Positions 29,816 to 39,782 of a DNA stretch of 52,560 nucleotides are shown here, piece after piece (positions within the stretch are counted from its first letter, which is position 1; the number at the start of each line of letters is the position of its first letter). Under the pieces are notes generated by a model. It had not been told where the DNA came from and made no database searches. It saw nothing but the letters and a program-made list of their open reading frames with translations. Both the position numbers and the translations under genes were made by a program. The DNA lies in the IMG/VR virus record IMGVR_UViG_3300033148_004975, positions 1 through 52,560 of that record, one strand, 5' to 3'. The DNA is from a virus.

Positions 29816-31273
29816 ATGGATAAACTTTGCGATACATCAGCAGAAAGATTTGTAATATCAGGAATATTAGAACATGGTGAAGATGCTTATTTAGATGTTG
29901 CAGATTTTTTACAAGTAGATACATTTACAAATATTGTTAATCAAAATATTTTTAAATGTATTAATTATGGTTTTAGATTTAAAAAGATTACAGAAATAGA
30001 TGTGCCAACTATACTTGGCATAGCATCTGAATTACATATTGATCTCAATACACCAGCCAATGTAAAATATCTATCTATATTAGCTAGTATCCATGTATCC
30101 TTATCAAATGTAAGAGTTTGGGCTGTTAAAATCCGCAAACTTCATATTGCTAGAATATTATTGGAACAAATTAAAGAATCGGAGCATGAAATTGAAAATA
30201 TTACTGGTGATGAATCAATATCTACAATATTAAGTATAATAGAAAATAGAGTTTTTAACTTTGCCTCCTTAATAGAAGGAATGAATGACGATCCAACGCT
30301 TTTGGGTGATGGATTAGATGAATATATTGAATATATCGAAAATAACCCCAACGCCTCTATAGGAATCTCTTCTGGTTTTCCCTATTATGATAAAGCGATA
30401 GGTGGCGGTTTTAGACGACAAATTATATCATTAATTTCTGCTAGAATAAAAACTGGTAAGACTATGTTTGCCACCAATGTTGCAATGCATGTGGCCAAAA
30501 ACCTAAACATTCCAGTTCTATATATTGATACAGAAATGATAAAGAAAGATCATTGGGCTAGATTATTGGCGAACTTATCATTTGAAAGTAAAGTATCAAT
30601 TAATGAAATCGAAACTGGAACATTTATTTATAATAAACATAAAAAAGAAGCAGTTAATAATTCAAAAGAAATATTAAAATCAATTCCAATATGGTATAAA
30701 AATGTTGCTGGTAAGGAATTTGAAGAGATTATTTCAATAATTAGGCGGTGGGTACACAAATATGTGGGTTTTGATGAATATGGTAATACAAAAGATTGTT
30801 TAATAATATATGATTATTTTCAATTAACTAATTCTGATAGATTATCTTCTACTTTGCAAGAATATCAGATGTTAGGTTTTATGTTAATAACATTGAAAAA
30901 CTTTGCTATTAGATATAATTTGCCAATATTATGTATGTCACAATCAAATAGAGAGGGCATAGATAGAGAAACAACATCTGTATTAGCTGGCTCAGATAGA
31001 ATATTATGGACTGTTGCCAATTATTCAATATGGAAAGAAAAAGACGCTAAAGATTTAGCAGAAATAGGCCCAGAACATGGATCAATGAAATTAGTACCAT
31101 TGTGTGCTAGACATGGAGAAGGTCTTGGGTATGGAGACTATATTAATTTCTTTTTCCACAAAAAGTATGCTAAAATAGTAGAAGGAGAAACTAAAGGTAA
31201 TATATTATTAGAACAAGAAAAACTCAATTCGCTACAAAAAGATTTTGCTAGCATAAATGATGAAACAAATTAA
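29816..31273 (+). CDS. dnaB: DnaB-like replicative helicase
   Basis: 485 residues. An N-terminal helical domain (about 1-150) is followed by the RecA-like motor: SGFPYYDKAIGGGF, then Walker A ARIKTGKT (209-216; DnaB enzymes also use ARxxxGKT), FIDTEM-like YIDTEM, Walker B LIIYDYFQL, and SQSNREG in motif 4. It unwinds DNA ahead of the phage fork. It overlaps the primase gene by 17 bases, the usual phage primosome pairing. Confidence 0.92.
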   Translation: MDKLCDTSAERFVISGILEHGEDAYLDVADFLQVDTFTNIVNQNIFKCINYGFRFKKITEIDVPTILGIASELHIDLNTPANVKYLSILASIHVSLSNVRVWAVKIRKLHIARILLEQIKESEHEIENITGDESISTILSIIENRVFNFASLIEGMNDDPTLLGDGLDEYIEYIENNPNASIGISSGFPYYDKAIGGGFRRQIISLISARIKTGKTMFATNVAMHVAKNLNIPVLYIDTEMIKKDHWARLLANLSFESKVSINEIETGTFIYNKHKKEAVNNSKEILKSIPIWYKNVAGKEFEEIISIIRRWVHKYVGFDEYGNTKDCLIIYDYFQLTNSDRLSSTLQEYQMLGFMLITLKNFAIRYNLPILCMSQSNREGIDRETTSVLAGSDRILWTVANYSIWKEKDAKDLAEIGPEHGSMKLVPLCARHGEGLGYGDYINFFFHKKYAKIVEGETKGNILLEQEKLNSLQKDFASINDETN

Positions 31274-32321
31274 CAATGTTTATCTTCTCATTGATGATGC
31301 GTGTAATCAATTTGAAAAAATACTTGATTATTTTGACGTAGAGTATACATATTCTGTAGCTAGAGTATATGGCCCATGTCCAGTACATCATGGAGATAAT
31401 AATAAAGCATGGAATTTTTATCCAGATAACACTAAGGGGCCACGCGGAATATGGATGTGTTATACAAATAGATGCCACAATCAATATGGAAAATCTTTTA
31501 TTGGTTTATTGAGGGGGCTTTTAAGTAATAAATTTTGCAAGAATGTTAGTTTTAATGAAGCTGTTGAATGGCTGCAAGCTTTTATACAACACAAAATTAA
31601 ATATGATAAATTATTAATTGATAATAAAGATAATCAACAATTCATTAACTTATATTCTAATTTAAATAATAGCGATAATAACAAACACCATTACAGTAAT
31701 GATAAACAAAAATACTTAAGAAGTAATATTATTAAACATTTATCTATACCAGCACAATATTATATAAATAGAAAATATAAACCATATATATTACAAAAAT
31801 ATGATGTCGGTTTATATACACCACAATCAAGGGTAATCGTACCAATATATGATGATACACGTCAATTTGCTGTTGGTTTTACTAAGAGAGCTATCTATGA
31901 TAATCAAAAACCCAAATGGTTACATAGTAAAGGATTAAAAATAGATAGTCTTTTGTATAATTCTTGGTTTGCTCAAAAATATATAAAAAAGACTCATTCT
32001 GCTATTATTGTGGAAGGGCCAGGAGATGTTTGGAGATTAGAAGAAGCTGGCATACATAATAGTTTAGCTGTTTTTACAAATCGCATTAGTAATATGCAAA
32101 TATGTAAATTATTAAGTATGGGCGTTACAGATATTATAATTTTAATGGATAATGATGAGGCTGGCAAAAAGGGTAAACAAGAAGCTAAACAAAAATTATC
32201 ACCATTTATGAGATTACATTTTGTAGAAATAGATAAAAAAGACGTTGGTGAAATGAATGTTGAAGAAATAAATAGTATTCTTTATCCTTATTCAAATATT
32301 TTAAAGAGGGAGATATTATGA
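31257..32321 (+). CDS. DNA primase with CHC2-type zinc site and TOPRIM domain
   Basis: 354 residues. The zinc site is C41-x2-H44 (CPVHHG) with C68 and C73 (CYTNRC). The TOPRIM domain has IIVEGPGD with E253 and the LMDNDEAGKKG metal motif (D298, D300). Residues between are helical and bind template. It makes RNA primers for both strands and should contact the helicase encoded just upstream. The C-terminal helicase-binding part is short compared with DnaG. Confidence 0.9.
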   Translation: MMKQINNVYLLIDDACNQFEKILDYFDVEYTYSVARVYGPCPVHHGDNNKAWNFYPDNTKGPRGIWMCYTNRCHNQYGKSFIGLLRGLLSNKFCKNVSFNEAVEWLQAFIQHKIKYDKLLIDNKDNQQFINLYSNLNNSDNNKHHYSNDKQKYLRSNIIKHLSIPAQYYINRKYKPYILQKYDVGLYTPQSRVIVPIYDDTRQFAVGFTKRAIYDNQKPKWLHSKGLKIDSLLYNSWFAQKYIKKTHSAIIVEGPGDVWRLEEAGIHNSLAVFTNRISNMQICKLLSMGVTDIIILMDNDEAGKKGKQEAKQKLSPFMRLHFVEIDKKDVGEMNVEEINSILYPYSNILKREIL

Positions 32322-33160
32322 AAATTTTAGGATTGGCTGGCAGAAAAGGTTCTGGTAAAACAACATCCGCCAATTACTTATTTGGTATGGCGATGAAAAA
32401 TATTGGACTTATTAATAAATTTTCTATTAATGACAAGGGCCAATTAGTTGTACCTATGCTTGATGAAACACAAACTAGAGAAGAAGATACAGTGATTGAT
32501 CCATTAACTCCAAATAGAGAAGCACAAGATTTTTTTGCTGAAAATGTTTGGCCCTTTTGTAAAATTTATGCTTTTGCAGATCCACTTAAGGCAATATGTT
32601 GTCAAATTTTAGGACTATCTCCTCAACAATGTTATGGCTCACAAGAAGATAAAAATACAAATACACATTTAAATTGGGAAGATATGCCATCTGTTATTGA
32701 TCCCAGAATGATGAAAGAATTTCATATTAATAGTGATGATTTGATAAAATTAAAATTAATTCAACATGATCCTGGTAAAATGACCGCTAGAGAAGTCATG
32801 CAATATGTTGGTACAGAAATATTTAGATCAATGTATAAAGATGTTTGGGTACATGCAACAATGAGAAAAATATCCATAGAATCACCACAAATTGCTGTTA
32901 TTTCTGATGTGAGATTTAAGAATGAATGTGAAGCCATTAAAAATGTTGGTGGTAAAATTATATTCTTTACCAGAAGTCCATATGAACGAGATAAACATCC
33001 TAGTGAAACATTATATGAAATGAATAGTCAGAAGAAGTCATCTATTGCAGATAATGAAAATTTATTTGATGCCGTCATTGATAATAAAGAATTATCTATT
33101 GATGAACAAAATCAACAACTTGAATCAATTATTAGTAATTGGGCTATTTCATTAAAATAA
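32318..33160 (+). CDS. Deoxynucleoside monophosphate kinase
   Basis: 280 residues. Walker A GRKGSGKTT (8-16), then YAFADPLK, MTAREVMQYVGTEIFR and VISDVRFKNE are typical of T4 gp1-like dNMP kinases. The enzyme phosphorylates dNMPs (in T4: dTMP, dGMP and hydroxymethyl-dCMP) to dNDPs. The ATGA overlap with primase and the neighbourhood of thymidylate synthase place it in dNTP supply at the fork. Confidence 0.88.
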   Translation: MKILGLAGRKGSGKTTSANYLFGMAMKNIGLINKFSINDKGQLVVPMLDETQTREEDTVIDPLTPNREAQDFFAENVWPFCKIYAFADPLKAICCQILGLSPQQCYGSQEDKNTNTHLNWEDMPSVIDPRMMKEFHINSDDLIKLKLIQHDPGKMTAREVMQYVGTEIFRSMYKDVWVHATMRKISIESPQIAVISDVRFKNECEAIKNVGGKIIFFTRSPYERDKHPSETLYEMNSQKKSSIADNENLFDAVIDNKELSIDEQNQQLESIISNWAISLK

Positions 33161-33182
33161 ATAATAATTGAGGAGCACTACT

Positions 33183-34187
33183 ATTTATATTAACTTTTTA
33201 AGATCATCATCATATAATGATTGGTTTGCTTGCCAATTAAAATATTTTTTAATTTATGTTCTTGGATTCAAGGATATTTCAAATAAAAGCGCTGAAAAGG
33301 GCACAATATGCCATAAAGCTTTAGAATGTTTGGCAAATATTAAATTATCACATGATAAGGGCTTAAATAAATTTGAAGATAATGAAATTGGAACATTATA
33401 TGTTGACGATTTTTTAAATACAGATGAAAATATAAGTGATTTAGTAATCAAAATTTTTGATTATTACACATCGCCATCTAAAACTATTCACACATTTAAT
33501 GAAGCAGATTTAAAAGATTGCATAAAATGGACTAATATACCATTAAAATACGGTAATGGTATGTTTGATCCTAGATTGAGAAATATTGTTGAACCAGAAT
33601 TATTTTTTGATATTGAATTTGATAAAGAATGGGCAAAATATGATTATAATATTAATAACAATAAAGTGCGTGGAAATTTTTCTCTAAAAGGTACAGTAGA
33701 TCTTGTAACCAAAGAGGACGACAAAGTATATGAAGTTATAGATTGGAAAACTGGACGAAGAATCAATTGGTCAACATTTGAAAGTAAAACGTATGATAAG
33801 TTGTATTTCGATCCACAACTTAGAATTTATCATTATGCTCTATCTAAAATTATGGGTAATCATACCTTTATCATTACAATTTTTTACATTAAAGATGGTG
33901 GCCCTTTTAGTATGGTTTTCAATAATGGCAATATTGAACAGACAAAAAATATGTTAAAGAATGTATTTTTAGATATTAAGAATACAACAAAGCCAATCAG
34001 ACGTAAAGAAACTGTACAAAATAAAAGATTTTGTTCATTTTGCACATTTAATAAACAACAATATAAAGACACTGGAATGTCCATATGTGATTTTATTCAC
34101 AATGAATTTAAATCTAAAAGTATTGATACAATATGCGATAAATATTGTAATGGCGATTTTCAGCTTGGTAACTATGAAAGAGGATAA
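33183..34187 (+). CDS. Cas4/RecB-like PD-(D/E)XK exonuclease
   Basis: About 335 residues. GTICHKALE (with His), GTVDLV, VYEVIDWKTGRR (Asp and the E-x-K active site) and QLRIYHYAL make a RecB-family nuclease. Four or more cysteines near the C-terminus (CSFC...CDF...CDKYC) could hold an iron-sulfur cluster as in Cas4 and AddB. The start is unclear: the only start-like codon near the open end is TTG at 33168, but TTGAGGAG itself looks like the ribosome site, and an ATT at 33183 stands 7 bases after it. It probably resects or trims DNA ends. Confidence 0.78.
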   Translation: MYINFLRSSSYNDWFACQLKYFLIYVLGFKDISNKSAEKGTICHKALECLANIKLSHDKGLNKFEDNEIGTLYVDDFLNTDENISDLVIKIFDYYTSPSKTIHTFNEADLKDCIKWTNIPLKYGNGMFDPRLRNIVEPELFFDIEFDKEWAKYDYNINNNKVRGNFSLKGTVDLVTKEDDKVYEVIDWKTGRRINWSTFESKTYDKLYFDPQLRIYHYALSKIMGNHTFIITIFYIKDGGPFSMVFNNGNIEQTKNMLKNVFLDIKNTTKPIRRKETVQNKRFCSFCTFNKQQYKDTGMSICDFIHNEFKSKSIDTICDKYCNGDFQLGNYERG

Positions 34188-34693: not shown

Positions 34694-36580
34694 ATGGCAT
34701 ATATACCGTTACATGTACATAGCGACAATTCTATCTTAGATGGCCTATCAAAAGTTAAAGAAATAGCTAAACGAGCATCTGATATAAACGTTGAAGCTTG
34801 TGCAATTACTGATCATGGTAATATTTCTGGAGCAGTGCAATTTATATCTGCTTGTAAAGATAATAATATCAAACCAATTATTGGCGTAGAAGCATATATA
34901 TGCAATGATGATCCCAAAATAAAGGATAAGAACAACAAATCCCTATCTCATTTGGTTCTTCTTGCCAAAAATATTAATGGATTTAGAAATTTATTAAAAA
35001 TTATTAACTTGGCAAATGATCCAGAACATTTTTATTATAAACCAAGATTATCTTTAGAATCATTAACAGAAGTTGATGTTAATGATTTAATCTGTATAGA
35101 TGGACATCTTGGCTCTCATTTGTCTACTTTTTTATTTGGAGAAAATAATTCTATAAATATTGATGCGGCAATACAATCAGTGAATTATAAAAAAGATATA
35201 TTTGGTAGTGAAAATTATTTTCTTGAATCACAATTAATTGACGTAGAAAACCTACCTATAACTAAACAATTAACTTCCATTGTTAGAGAAATTGGAAAGA
35301 AAACAAATACAAAAATTGTAGCCACACCAGACGCACATTATACAACGAAAGAAAGTGCCATTGATCAAAGGGTACTATTATGCATCAATATGAATAAACC
35401 AATTATTGATATTAATAGAAAGATCGTTAATGGTGATAATAATATACCATTATCTCAGTTCTTTAAATCATTCAATTACCATATTCCAACAGAAATAGAA
35501 ATGAAAGAAGTTGGACACACAGAAGAGGAACTTGCTAATTCTGTGTTAATTGCCAATATGTGTGAAATATATGATTTGAAGAATAAGCCAATTATTCCTC
35601 ATTTTGAATGCCCAAATAATCTAACTTCATCTGAATATCTAAAACAAGTTTGTAGAAAAGGATGGGTTAATAAAAGAGATAAAATAGAAAAAGTATTATC
35701 TAAGTTAAATATTGATAAAAATGTATACGGTGATAGATTTAGAGAAGAATTTAATACTTTAGAAGAGGCAAATTTACATGATTATTTTTTGGTTATCTAT
35801 GATATAGTTCAATTTGCACACAACAATAATATATATTCTGGTGCAGGCAGAGGTTCTGTTGGTGGATCTTTAATAGCATATTTAATGGATATAACAAAAG
35901 TAGATCCCATTGAACATGGCCTTATTTTTGGAAGATTTTATAATAAAGGAAGAAATACTGAAGATAGAGTATCATTACCAGATATTGATTTAGATTTTGA
36001 AATGTCGGGTAGAGAAACAATAATAGGTTATTTAAAAGAAAAATATGGTCATGATAATGTTGCACAAATGATTACGTTTAATAAAATGCAAGGAAGAGCA
36101 GCAATTAAAGATGTATTAAGAGTATGGGAAGCGTGTCCATTTAATGTAATGAATGAAATTACCGAATTTATACCTAATGAGGCGGAAATTGCAGATCAAC
36201 TTCAAGCGATGAAGGATGAAAATGATGATGATAGTGCTAGTATAATAAAATGGGCATTAATCAATCATAAAGGCGATCTAAAGGAATGGGCTGTATTAAA
36301 TGATGACGACACAATATCTGGACCGCTTGGCAAAAGATTTGAGCAGGCTATAAGATTGGAAGGCACAAAACGTAGCCATGGAAAACATGCTGCTGGAGTA
36401 GTTGCGGGAAATGAACCATTATATAATATATGTCCTATGATTTATGATACCGTAACAAAACAAAAAATATGCGGATGGGAAATGAATGATTTAGAATATG
36501 TTGGATTAACTAAATTTGATATTTTGGGACTTGCATTATTAGACAAAATACATGAAATAACTAATCTTTTAAAAGGATAA
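34694..36580 (+). CDS. dnaE: DNA polymerase III alpha subunit, N-terminal half (PHP, palm, thumb)
   Basis: 628 residues: an N-terminal PHP domain (HVHSD at 7-11, ITDHG at 38-42, DAHYTT at 213-218), then the catalytic palm with GAGRGSVGGS (383-392) and all three catalytic aspartates, D430 and D432 in PDIDLDF and D609 in KFDILGL. It stops at residue 628, just after LGL, where other DnaE proteins continue into the fingers. The rest is a separate gene at 38124. Intact activity should need both halves. AAGGATAATCA precedes the ATG. Confidence 0.92.
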   Translation: MAYIPLHVHSDNSILDGLSKVKEIAKRASDINVEACAITDHGNISGAVQFISACKDNNIKPIIGVEAYICNDDPKIKDKNNKSLSHLVLLAKNINGFRNLLKIINLANDPEHFYYKPRLSLESLTEVDVNDLICIDGHLGSHLSTFLFGENNSINIDAAIQSVNYKKDIFGSENYFLESQLIDVENLPITKQLTSIVREIGKKTNTKIVATPDAHYTTKESAIDQRVLLCINMNKPIIDINRKIVNGDNNIPLSQFFKSFNYHIPTEIEMKEVGHTEEELANSVLIANMCEIYDLKNKPIIPHFECPNNLTSSEYLKQVCRKGWVNKRDKIEKVLSKLNIDKNVYGDRFREEFNTLEEANLHDYFLVIYDIVQFAHNNNIYSGAGRGSVGGSLIAYLMDITKVDPIEHGLIFGRFYNKGRNTEDRVSLPDIDLDFEMSGRETIIGYLKEKYGHDNVAQMITFNKMQGRAAIKDVLRVWEACPFNVMNEITEFIPNEAEIADQLQAMKDENDDDSASIIKWALINHKGDLKEWAVLNDDDTISGPLGKRFEQAIRLEGTKRSHGKHAAGVVAGNEPLYNICPMIYDTVTKQKICGWEMNDLEYVGLTKFDILGLALLDKIHEITNLLKG

Positions 36581-36587
36581 AGAAAAA

Positions 36588-37271
36588 ATGGATAAAAGAT
36601 ATATTATTAGCTTAGACTTGGAAACAAGTTCTCTAGATACGAAAAACTGTGAAATATTAGAAATAGGTGCGATTGCCATCAATCCAATTAACTTTACTAT
36701 TGCTGATAAATTTTCTTCACTCGTTAAACCAGATAAGATGGATGAAATCAGTCAATCTGCATTAGATGTTAATAGAATATCTAAAGATGAATTAGAATCT
36801 GCACCAGTCTCAAAAGTCGTATTTGATATGTTTGGTGAATGGATAACAAAATTTAATTATAGTAATAATAATAACATTTTCAGTGCTCCTATATGTGCTG
36901 GATGGAATATAGTAAATTTTGATATGCCTATTTTAGATAGATATCTTAAAAAATATAATTTTTGGGATAATAAAAGAAATCAGAGAAAATTGTTAAGTCC
37001 ACTTATAATTATGGATGTTATGCATTATATGTGGTGGTTAACAAGAATAAATGATGATATTAAAAGTATAAGCATGGGAAATATGTTAAAATATATGGGC
37101 ATTAATAAAGAATTAATTGGTGATAAAGCACATAGAGCATTATGGGATGCAGAACAAACAGCTAATGTTATTATTAAAATACTAAAATTAGGTAGATTCC
37201 TTACAGAAAAGAAAGAAGATGGAAAAAGAAGACTAGAGTTAAAAAATTGTATGATTGATAATAATGCGTAA
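36588..37271 (+). CDS. DnaQ-like 3'-5' exonuclease (proofreading)
   Basis: 227 residues with the DEDDh exonuclease motifs: ISLDLET with D10 and E12 (Exo I), GWNIVNFDMPIL (Exo II) and AHRALWDAEQT with the His and Asp of Exo III. The family is the epsilon proofreading subunit or a repair exonuclease. It lies between the two polymerase halves, so it likely proofreads for the split replicase. Confidence 0.86.
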   Translation: MDKRYIISLDLETSSLDTKNCEILEIGAIAINPINFTIADKFSSLVKPDKMDEISQSALDVNRISKDELESAPVSKVVFDMFGEWITKFNYSNNNNIFSAPICAGWNIVNFDMPILDRYLKKYNFWDNKRNQRKLLSPLIIMDVMHYMWWLTRINDDIKSISMGNMLKYMGINKELIGDKAHRALWDAEQTANVIIKILKLGRFLTEKKEDGKRRLELKNCMIDNNA

Positions 37272-37812
37272 TTCACATATCGTCTTCAAAAATTCATATG
37301 ATTGTGGATTATCAACGGAAGAATTATTTAAAAGATGCCTTGCAAAATTAAATATATTTTCCAACATAAGAATAGCATCACAACACGATAATCATAATTT
37401 ACATATAGATATATGGGCTACTCTAAATAAATCCAACAAAGATAAATCTTTTAGCATAAAATCAATGAAAAGAATAAAGAGACATAAAAATCTTCAAGAT
37501 GAATATTTTATAGTTGAGTTAGCTAATAATGCACATAAAATTAATCCAGATGGTTGGCTTTTTGGTGGAGCGGCAGATTTTATCGCTTCTATGAGGCAAT
37601 CTTATTTTTTGGTGATGCTAATGTCGGATTTACAAAAATTTATTAGATCTTACATTCAACCAGACTTTAAAAAGAGGGCGATTAAATATAATAATCCTTC
37701 TCCATATATAGTGTATTATAGAAGAGAAAATATTAAAAGGCGTGATTATCTTATGTTAGTTCCATATAGTGATATAGAAAAATATCTTAAATGTATAAAA
37801 TTAAAATTTTGA
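37264..37812 (+). CDS. Possible nuclease-fold protein between the polymerase halves
   Basis: About 182 residues from the ATG at 37264 (37255 is possible). NLHIDIWATL...FSIKSMKRIKR gives a D...S-I-K pattern that could be a PD-(D/E)XK core, followed by DEYFIVELAN and WLFGGAADFI. This reading is tentative. The position inside a split replicase raises the question of a homing-type nuclease, although no LAGLIDADG, GIY-YIG or HNH motif is present. Confidence 0.5.
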   Translation: MRNSHIVFKNSYDCGLSTEELFKRCLAKLNIFSNIRIASQHDNHNLHIDIWATLNKSNKDKSFSIKSMKRIKRHKNLQDEYFIVELANNAHKINPDGWLFGGAADFIASMRQSYFLVMLMSDLQKFIRSYIQPDFKKRAIKYNNPSPYIVYYRRENIKRRDYLMLVPYSDIEKYLKCIKLKF

Positions 37813-37836
37813 TAAATAGTCAATAAGGAGTATGTT

Positions 37837-38121
37837 ATGTTTATTAAGCATATCAGAAATATCAATGGACAACCATTTGCTACTGTTGCAGTAGGTGATA
37901 GTGGAATTGGTTTTGCGATTTGTAATGAAGATGATCAATTTTCTAAAAAGATTGGAAGAAAAATTGCAATATCTAGAGCAAACAACCCAAAATTCAATAT
38001 TAATGAATTTATAAATAGATGCCCTAAAAGATGTGTAAATTCTAAAAATGGCTATCTTCCATTGCGTAATATTATTGAAAAAGAAATTAACCATATTAAA
38101 CAAATATATATGCGTAATTAA
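37837..38121 (+). CDS. Conserved phage small protein
   Basis: 94 residues. The start MFIKHIRNINGQPFATVAVG and the segment GFAICNEDDQFSKKIGRKIA match a short protein found unnamed in many large phages. A good AAGGAG lies 7 bases before the ATG, stronger than for the surrounding genes. The function is unknown. It sits directly before the C-terminal half of the polymerase. Confidence 0.7.
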   Translation: MFIKHIRNINGQPFATVAVGDSGIGFAICNEDDQFSKKIGRKIAISRANNPKFNINEFINRCPKRCVNSKNGYLPLRNIIEKEINHIKQIYMRN

Positions 38122-38123
38122 AA

Positions 38124-39782
38124 ATGGGTAAATTGATTTATAAATGTGGTTGCGAATTTATCATTGATGATGGCACCAATAATATTATATATTGCAATGA
38201 TCCTACAAAAGATGTGCCTTCACACGGTGTTATATTAAATATATATGATGTTCCGCTTGATTGTCCAAAAACATGGGATATGTTTGCACAAGCACATAAT
38301 GTTGGCATTTTTCAATTGGAAAAATCACTTGGCAAACAATGGATGAAAAAAGTTGCACCGCGAAATATTGAAGAATTATCTGCACTTATTTCAATAATGA
38401 GGCCAGGAGCATTAAAATCTGTATCTGGAGACCCCCCTAAAAGTATGGCACAAAGATATGTTGATCGAAAATATGGCAAAGAAAGAATTGATGATTTTGG
38501 TGTTCCAATTTTAAAAAATATTATGGAAGATAGTTTTTCTGTTCTTATTTATCAAGAACATGCAATTAGAATTGCTCAAGAAATAGCTGGATTTAATGAA
38601 CAAGAAGCAGATATATTAAGAAAAGCAATTGGTAAAAAAAATGTAGAAGAAATGACCAAACTTGAAAATAGTTTTGTTGAAGGATGCGCAAAAACTGGTA
38701 TTGTAAATTCTAATAAAGCTAAGGAAGTATTTTCATGGATTCGTGAATCACAAAAATATTCATTTAATAAATCACATGGAACTCAATATGCCATCAATTC
38801 TTATTGGTCTGCTTACTGTAAAGCACATTTCCCTTTGCAATTTTATTGTGCTTATTTACGATTTGCAAAAAATAAACAAGATAGATTTGAAGAAATATAT
38901 AATATAATTAATGAAGCCAAACTACTCAATATTAATGTTTGTCTTCCAGATATTCGAGATATGGAAGAAACATTCTATATAAAAAATTCAGATATTTATT
39001 TTGGTTTAACAGATATTAAAAATATTGGTAGTGCTAATTTACAAAAGGCAATTAATACAATATGGGGATCTTTTTATGACAGGAGTTTTTCAGACATTAC
39101 ATGGGAAGATATATTAATATATTGCGATAATATTCCTATAACAGTTTTAGAATCTTTAATTTCATCAGGTGCTTTAGATTTTTTTAATGTTTCTCGTTCA
39201 ACTATGCTATTTCAATTAAATATAACACATGATAAAATCACAAAAAAAGAAAGAGAATGGATAAAACAACATTATAGTGGAGAAGGGCTTATAGAAATAT
39301 TAAGAAAATGTGCAAAAACTAAGAGAGAAGGTGGGGGTTGTTCCAATAAGAAAAGAATAGATATACTAAATAGTATTGCTAATTCAATAGAAAATCCACC
39401 AAGATCACTTAATGATGGGGTAGAATATATTGCATGGTTAGAAAAAGAATATCTTGGAGCATCTATATCGTGCCATGTAGTTGATGGCAATAAAGAATCT
39501 GTTAAAGCTAGTCATATTTGTAGAGATATAATTAATGGCAACAATCAATTTATGATTATAGCCGCCCAAATAGATAGAATTAATGTTATTACAACAAAAA
39601 ATAATAAAAAAATGGCTTTTCTAACAATTTCAGATTCTTCTTGTGCTGTAGATGATGTTGTATGTTTTCCTGATGTTTTTGAAAAAGTACAAAATATATT
39701 ATTTGATAATAATATTGTATTGCTTTATGGTTCTGTTGGTAAAAGAGGAAATTTTATATGCTCGAATATCACCCAAATATAA
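38124..39782 (+). CDS. dnaE: DNA polymerase III alpha subunit, C-terminal half
   Basis: 552 residues that resume DnaE where the gene at 34694 stops: LDCPKTWDMFAQ, NVGIFQLEKSLG, then MRPGALKS, LIYQEHAIRIAQEIAGF, ADILRKAIGKKN, SFNKSHGTQYAIN and KAHFPLQFYCAY. The first 45 residues (with KCGCEF) are a small extra segment seen in some phage DnaE proteins as I know them. It carries the fingers, tandem HhH and OB-type region but no catalytic aspartates, so it cannot act alone. It is probably assembled with the N half. Confidence 0.9.
   Translation: MGKLIYKCGCEFIIDDGTNNIIYCNDPTKDVPSHGVILNIYDVPLDCPKTWDMFAQAHNVGIFQLEKSLGKQWMKKVAPRNIEELSALISIMRPGALKSVSGDPPKSMAQRYVDRKYGKERIDDFGVPILKNIMEDSFSVLIYQEHAIRIAQEIAGFNEQEADILRKAIGKKNVEEMTKLENSFVEGCAKTGIVNSNKAKEVFSWIRESQKYSFNKSHGTQYAINSYWSAYCKAHFPLQFYCAYLRFAKNKQDRFEEIYNIINEAKLLNINVCLPDIRDMEETFYIKNSDIYFGLTDIKNIGSANLQKAINTIWGSFYDRSFSDITWEDILIYCDNIPITVLESLISSGALDFFNVSRSTMLFQLNITHDKITKKEREWIKQHYSGEGLIEILRKCAKTKREGGGCSNKKRIDILNSIANSIENPPRSLNDGVEYIAWLEKEYLGASISCHVVDGNKESVKASHICRDIINGNNQFMIIAAQIDRINVITTKNNKKMAFLTISDSSCAVDDVVCFPDVFEKVQNILFDNNIVLLYGSVGKRGNFICSNITQI

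Follow-up and report, generated by a model that had tools for sequence, protein, structure and literature searches.

A replicative DNA polymerase is usually one chain, whose palm and fingers have to move in concert whenever a nucleotide is added. The group 2.2 jumbo phages encode a minimal split Pol III alpha, whose two proteins were proposed to reconstitute the enzyme; it is without other Pol III domains, its genes are distantly located, and a family B polymerase is also present (Iyer et al. 2021, PMC7824862). In Aeromonas phage 25 the family B polymerase is split into 43A and 43B, and according to PMC2988022 (citing Petrov 2010) the parts co-purify and are active. In this work we analysed virus record IMGVR_UViG_3300033148_004975, a 52,560-base fragment (the whole of this fragment is called the window below; GC about 30%, large open reading frames (ORFs) on the plus strand). 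A sequence-only reading of this DNA had claimed that the alpha subunit of its DNA polymerase III, DnaE, is split over two genes. The Pfam and PHROG domains bear this out, being divided between 34694-36580 (N-half) and 38124-39782 (C-half).

We put the probability that the window encodes a two-chain alpha subunit, assembled non-covalently and co-produced with an exonuclease from one operon, at roughly 0.87. The replicative polymerase would be an alpha subunit of the C family (DnaE type) that consists of two polypeptides, alpha-N, carrying PHP, palm, thumb and all three catalytic Asp, and alpha-C, carrying fingers, HhH and OB, with the cut at the loop that joins palm and fingers. Both chains would be translated from one operon with the gene of a DnaQ-like exonuclease between them, and they would associate non-covalently across the palm/fingers interface, rebuilding the active site; the exonuclease would probably serve as the proofreading subunit. 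Two separate chains are strongly favoured by clade-wide conservation, purifying selection, invariant catalytic residues, recurrence in cultured phages and the finding of no other replicative polymerase, all of them comparative sequence evidence. The sequence-only reading had stated that the halves must assemble as separate chains; the comparative evidence supports the separate chains, and the "must assemble" is softened here, as we infer that the chains physically assemble, that they polymerise DNA, that the exonuclease proofreads and that translation is coupled. By analogy with the split gp43, whose parts co-purify, the two chains may form a functional polymerase.

The N-half matched PHP (E 1.7e-37) and DNA_pol3_alpha (E 3.7e-68), the latter match covering the profile to its last position (260/260), and the C-half matched DNA_pol3_finger (E 3.9e-37), HHH_6 and OB. 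The PHP domain and the palm/thumb with the three catalytic Asp of a DnaE-type polymerase (PDxDxD, KxDxLG) are thus all present, and finger, HhH and OB follow in order, but on a second polypeptide. All three catalytic residues, Asp430 (35981-35983), Asp432 (35987-35989) and Asp609 (36518-36520), are on the N-half, whose stop codon (TAA) comes 16 amino acids (aa) past KFDILG, i.e. right after the third aspartate, as previously noted. The C-half begins 2 nucleotides (nt) after the stop of the preceding ORF and retains FQLE, RPG, GKK and FNKSH. That it resumes where DnaE normally continues, another point of the earlier reading, was confirmed by two alignments. PHROG 405 runs nearly gapless across the halves (N-half, profile positions 42-614; C-half, 618-1053), and in the alignment to DnaE structures of the PDB the N-half reaches residue 635 of Taq alpha and the C-half picks up at Taq 637 / E. 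coli 584, therefore no core residue is absent at the junction. In the DnaE structure the break falls at the palm/fingers boundary. AlphaFold2, run with alignments of the clade, gave a mean predicted local distance difference test (pLDDT) of 93.7 and a predicted TM-score (pTM) of 0.91 for the N-half, the terminus of which coincides with the last helix, and 92.3 and 0.86 for the C-half. The top Foldseek matches of both halves were Pol III alpha chains, then PolC. Each half is thus modelled as a complete, confident part of DnaE.

Homology scans of IMG/VR yielded several hundred related loci, which after removal of duplicates gave 202 distinct loci with both halves. DnaE was split at the same loop in all 202 and fused in none, which disposes of the possibility that related genomes carry the halves as one gene and that the window has an assembly break here. 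The window is a metagenomic virus record, and a chimeric assembly or a sequencing error could make one gene appear as two; since 202 distinct loci, drawn from many metagenomes, are arranged identically and isolate genomes have the same break, we give this explanation practically no weight. Motif conservation was counted over 121-130 unique sequences. Asp430/432 were present in 120/120 N-halves and Asp609 in 121/121, FQLE and RPG in 130/130 C-halves; the N-half motifs GRGS and KHA-G, like the three catalytic Asp, were invariant or nearly so, as were G-FQLE, RPG, RK--GKK and FN-SH of the C-half. The Nei-Gojobori ratio of nonsynonymous to synonymous substitution rates (dN/dS), calculated for close pairs of relatives, was 0.007-0.144 across N-half, exonuclease and C-half, and judging from these values the halves are under strong purifying selection, i.e. 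they appear to be working genes.

The window is not alone in having the split, which characterises a large clade of uncultivated viruses and is also found in cultured phages whose annotation already lists two DnaE genes. That the clade has no cultured member is suggested by the public phage collection, where identity to the best listed records is no higher than about 34% for the N-half and 28% for the C-half. Rossellomorea phage phiT1 (gp20/gp18) and the Mycobacterium phages MrMiyagi, Fowlmouth and Cuke have their cut in the same loop (E. coli-like residues 574-580). In the Microbacterium, Gordonia and Mycobacterium phages JingleBells, TinyMiny, Beyoncage and Aikoy the cut separates PHP from palm (E. 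coli-like residue 278-287), and in Staphylococcus phage CF9 it is in the thumb region (488); the loci with these other break sites of cultured phages are labelled L180, L181, L183, L184 and L185. In a maximum-likelihood tree, from the final version of which the contiguous control L176 was left out, the clade of the window forms one group (100/100), and the same-site split requires three changes, in the clade, in phiT1 and in MrMiyagi. Indlulamithi, the sister of the MrMiyagi lineage, has one contiguous DnaE gene. Judged from this tree, the same-loop split is of independent origin in the clade, in phiT1 and in the MrMiyagi lineage.

The gene that follows the N-half encodes a DnaQ-type exonuclease: it matched RNase_T (E 1.1e-15) and PHROG 192, "DNA polymerase exonuclease subunit" (E 1.9e-31), and has the acidic motifs of the DEDD exonuclease fold (DxE, Asp112). 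An exonuclease gene lies between the halves in all 202 distinct loci (the strict rule gives 193; nine more are counted as between because their match begins right at the N-half stop or a few bases from it). It is the sole intervening gene conserved throughout the clade, the conserved order being N-half, DnaQ-like exonuclease, C-half. In most relatives the end of the exonuclease gene overlaps the start of the C-half, the commonest overlaps being 4 or 8 nt, and in the minimal arrangement, found in L132, N-half, exonuclease and C-half overlap successively. This overlap resembles that of translationally coupled genes, and the two may be coupled. We consider it doubtful that alpha-N, exonuclease and alpha-C form an obligate three-subunit core, in which the exonuclease would help to hold or assemble the alpha chains and the separation of palm and fingers would be selected and adaptive, not a tolerated accident.

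Besides the exonuclease, the sequence-only reading had placed a possible nuclease and a conserved phage small protein between the halves. The exonuclease stood; the nuclease, a 185-aa ORF, is such by eye only, having no Pfam match above the cut-off and no homologue in 155 complete related loci or in the scan of viral contigs, and the small protein, a 94-aa ORF, cannot be called conserved, having no Pfam or PHROG family and no homologue in the 155 loci. Both ORFs are local to the virus of the window. The cargo of the gap varies among relatives and includes a uracil-DNA glycosylase-family gene (L093), HNH-like endonucleases recognised by eye (L041, L095), a FkbM-like gene, also by eye (L157), and other metabolic genes; such genes were found in L093, L041, L095, L094, L017 and L157, mostly between N-half and exonuclease. 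The gap between the halves looks like an insertion hotspot. In addition, the gap of several relatives that were read in detail holds a short ORF (about 58-72 aa) in which an SCC/NCC stretch is conserved.

Some observations weigh against the two-chain polymerase proposed here. The C-half of the window is more diverged than the clade (branch 0.67), and the near-invariant G-TKG motif is AHNVG at aa 57-61. In the window two additional genes sit between exonuclease and C-half, therefore direct coupling of these two does not apply there. The window contig is a fragment, and so cannot by itself exclude another polymerase. Evidence for the mechanism from residue coupling is weak: in a mutual information analysis with average product correction (MI-APC; 88 sequences, effective number (Neff) 73, helicase as control) the halves shared more mutual information with each other than with the control, and pairs between N-half and C-half made up 37 of the top 50 inter-protein pairs versus 18.9 expected, a modest signal, which could reflect shared inheritance.

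A divergent C-half would also fit a polymerase that is degrading, or halves of which each has acquired another role while the host replicase copies the phage, and the loss of PHP metal ligands in one subclade points the same way. The polymerase catalytic motifs are, however, all invariant, dN/dS is far below 1, the halves are always found together, and a search for family A or B polymerases in 12 relatives of 149-230 kb, whose contigs are possibly incomplete, detected none; we regard decay or repurposing as improbable. Each of the 12 has the N and C domains of DnaE once, except G002, which has them twice; a terminase match was found in 8/12, and no beta clamp was detected in these possibly incomplete contigs. 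G002 (206 kb, the contig of L116) contains two split DnaE loci, at 53291-55684 and 199351-201742, which are either paralogues or the product of a chimeric assembly. In the PHP domain, most members retain nine positions resembling metal ligands, and one subclade, in which the PHP domain of the N-half is shortened (e.g. L132, L145, L165), has largely lost the nine jointly; because of this pattern proofreading may be by PHP, by DnaQ or by both.

Another possibility is that a split intein ligates the halves after translation, as it does for cyanobacterial DnaE or the "fractured genes" of phages. Cyanobacterial DnaE likewise comes from two genes, but there the chains are joined by protein trans-splicing, whereas the DnaE of the window is without an intein and is broken at another site, as the earlier reading had it; the FNKSH site is intact inside the C-half. 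That no intein borders the break was also upheld, since neither an N-part following the N-extein nor a C-part ending in HN was found. Wherever the motif is recognisable, only 16-40 aa follow KFDILG before the N-half ends, within a native helix, which leaves no space for an intein N-part. The lead of the C-half is 7 to 49 aa where measurable and without an HN/C junction (it is CGC-type in 128/156 relatives and short in the remainder), and because some C-halves start almost directly at the finger motif, intein parts have no room. Split inteins do exist in these polymerases, and their detection at another site of the gene in three relatives served as a positive control for our methods, so that we consider ligation at the palm/fingers loop very improbable. 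These three (L144:3041-6117, L157:2552-5322, L161:3316-5290) have the split intein in the N-half, with a Hint-like N-part of about 90 aa after GPGRG and an IntC ending in VHN before SAAG; an endonuclease-like gene lies between the intein parts in L144 and L157. The polymerase of L144, L157 and L161 thus has three coding pieces, and trans-splicing would join two of them. A contiguous intein after RPG in the C-half was seen in L005/L006:7983-10250, L058:9696-12083 and L285 (near 7490), with an HNH-like motif in L005 and L058.

The intervening genes might instead lie within a group I or II intron that is spliced from a single transcript. Intron-like breaks are known in other phage DnaE genes, for example before the PDxDxD motif in Bacillus phage Jayan. 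In our locus no group I/II core was found at the break: a threshold as loose as E<=5 brought no Rfam intron match, whether over the window or at the junction, a negative tempered by the fact that Rfam can miss phage introns and also missed the Jayan case. All native residues are, however, contained in two ORFs with proper stop and start, and the content of the gap varies among relatives, which makes splicing of one transcript very improbable, like an intein. Jayan itself was rejected as a case of split DnaE, its two annotated genes being probably interrupted by a group I-like intron unrecognised by Rfam (L010:7150-7520). In L150:3027-6101 (also in L164) the N-half is broken before PDIDID with a LAGLIDADG gene; this looks like an intron, for which Rfam gave no match in L150. 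An intein (ending YIPTHN, followed by TGRR) is apparently present in the upstream Cas4-like gene of L150 (1117-3111).

The two halves belong to a replication operon (Table 1) with the order DnaB-like helicase, TOPRIM primase, deoxynucleoside monophosphate (dNMP) kinase, Cas4-like nuclease, 146-aa ORF, DnaE N-half, DnaQ-like exonuclease, 185-aa ORF, 94-aa ORF, DnaE C-half. No relative was found among 84,980 bacterial and archaeal genomes scanned, and no prophage was seen.

Table 1. Features of the replication region of the window
Feature	Position	Strand	Evidence or remark
Upstream replication operon	29816..34187	+	Pfam/PHROG; gene order same in relatives
DnaB-like helicase	29816-31273	+	Pfam/PHROG
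TOPRIM primase	31257-32321	+	Pfam/PHROG
dNMP kinase	32318-33160	+	Pfam/PHROG
Cas4-like PD-(D/E)XK nuclease	33168-34187	+	Pfam/PHROG
DnaE N-half, 628 aa, PHP + palm + thumb	34694..36580	+	Pfam, PHROG 405, PDB DnaE alignment, AlphaFold2, Foldseek
DnaQ-like 3'-5' exonuclease (DEDD family), 227 aa	36588..37271	+	RNase_T, PHROG 192, conserved DxE and Asp112
185-aa orphan ORF	37255..37812	+	Possible PD-(D/E)XK-like nuclease by eye only (HIDIWA...SFSIKSMK)
94-aa orphan ORF	37837..38121	+	Shine-Dalgarno-like AAGGAG upstream
DnaE C-half, 552 aa, fingers + HhH + OB	38124..39782	+	Pfam, PHROG 405, PDB DnaE alignment, AlphaFold2, Foldseek
N-terminal lead of C-half, about 44 aa, ahead of LDCPKTWDMF	38124..38255	+	CGCEF motif, three short strands (AlphaFold2 secondary structure); varies among relatives, some of which lack it

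The occurrence of the split in a large, diverse clade and in at least two independent cultured lineages suggests that the palm/fingers interface tolerates being two subunits. Such enzymes would be a natural system for studies of polymerase assembly and would provide a natural place to split a polymerase when conditional replicases are engineered, and the cultured phages with the same-loop cut make testing possible. Gene callers and marker-based surveys will score phages of this kind as having partial polymerases.

It remains to compare the locus with the known systems. With bacterial DnaE (E. coli 2hnh/5fkv, Taq 2hpi/4iqj, M. tuberculosis 7pu7) it shares the domain order, the three catalytic Asp and finger/HhH/OB, at a structural-alignment identity of 27-30% for the N-half and 23-31% for the C-half. 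The bacterial enzyme is a single chain, whereas the clade of the window has two chains with a DnaQ-like gene between, and in contrast to bacterial DnaE no recognisable clamp-binding motif was found at the end of the C-half. In phiT1, Fowlmouth, MrMiyagi and Cuke, too, the N-half ends just past the third catalytic position and the C-half starts just ahead of the finger motif. The gap in phiT1 and the MrMiyagi group is, however, without an exonuclease gene (phiT1 has a 49-aa ORF there, and the MrMiyagi genes overlap by 4 nt), and the origins appear to be independent. The split Pol III alpha of the jumbo phages is likewise a C-family polymerase in two proteins. The polymerase of the window differs in being nearly full length (PHP, HhH and OB are present), in having adjacent genes, and in being the only polymerase found, with no PolB in the 12 relatives. 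The gp43 of the T4-related Aeromonas phages 25 and 44RR is also a split replicative polymerase, but of family B; according to the same source, the split there is linked to insertions and the gap holds a seg homing endonuclease or an untranslated insert. The clade-wide alpha-N/DnaQ/alpha-C arrangement was not found described in the literature searched, which took in few subscription papers. Split phage replicases as such are already known (T4-like gp43A/B, jumbo-phage Pol III alpha, annotated cultured phages), and the arrangement of the window adds a clade-wide variant to them.

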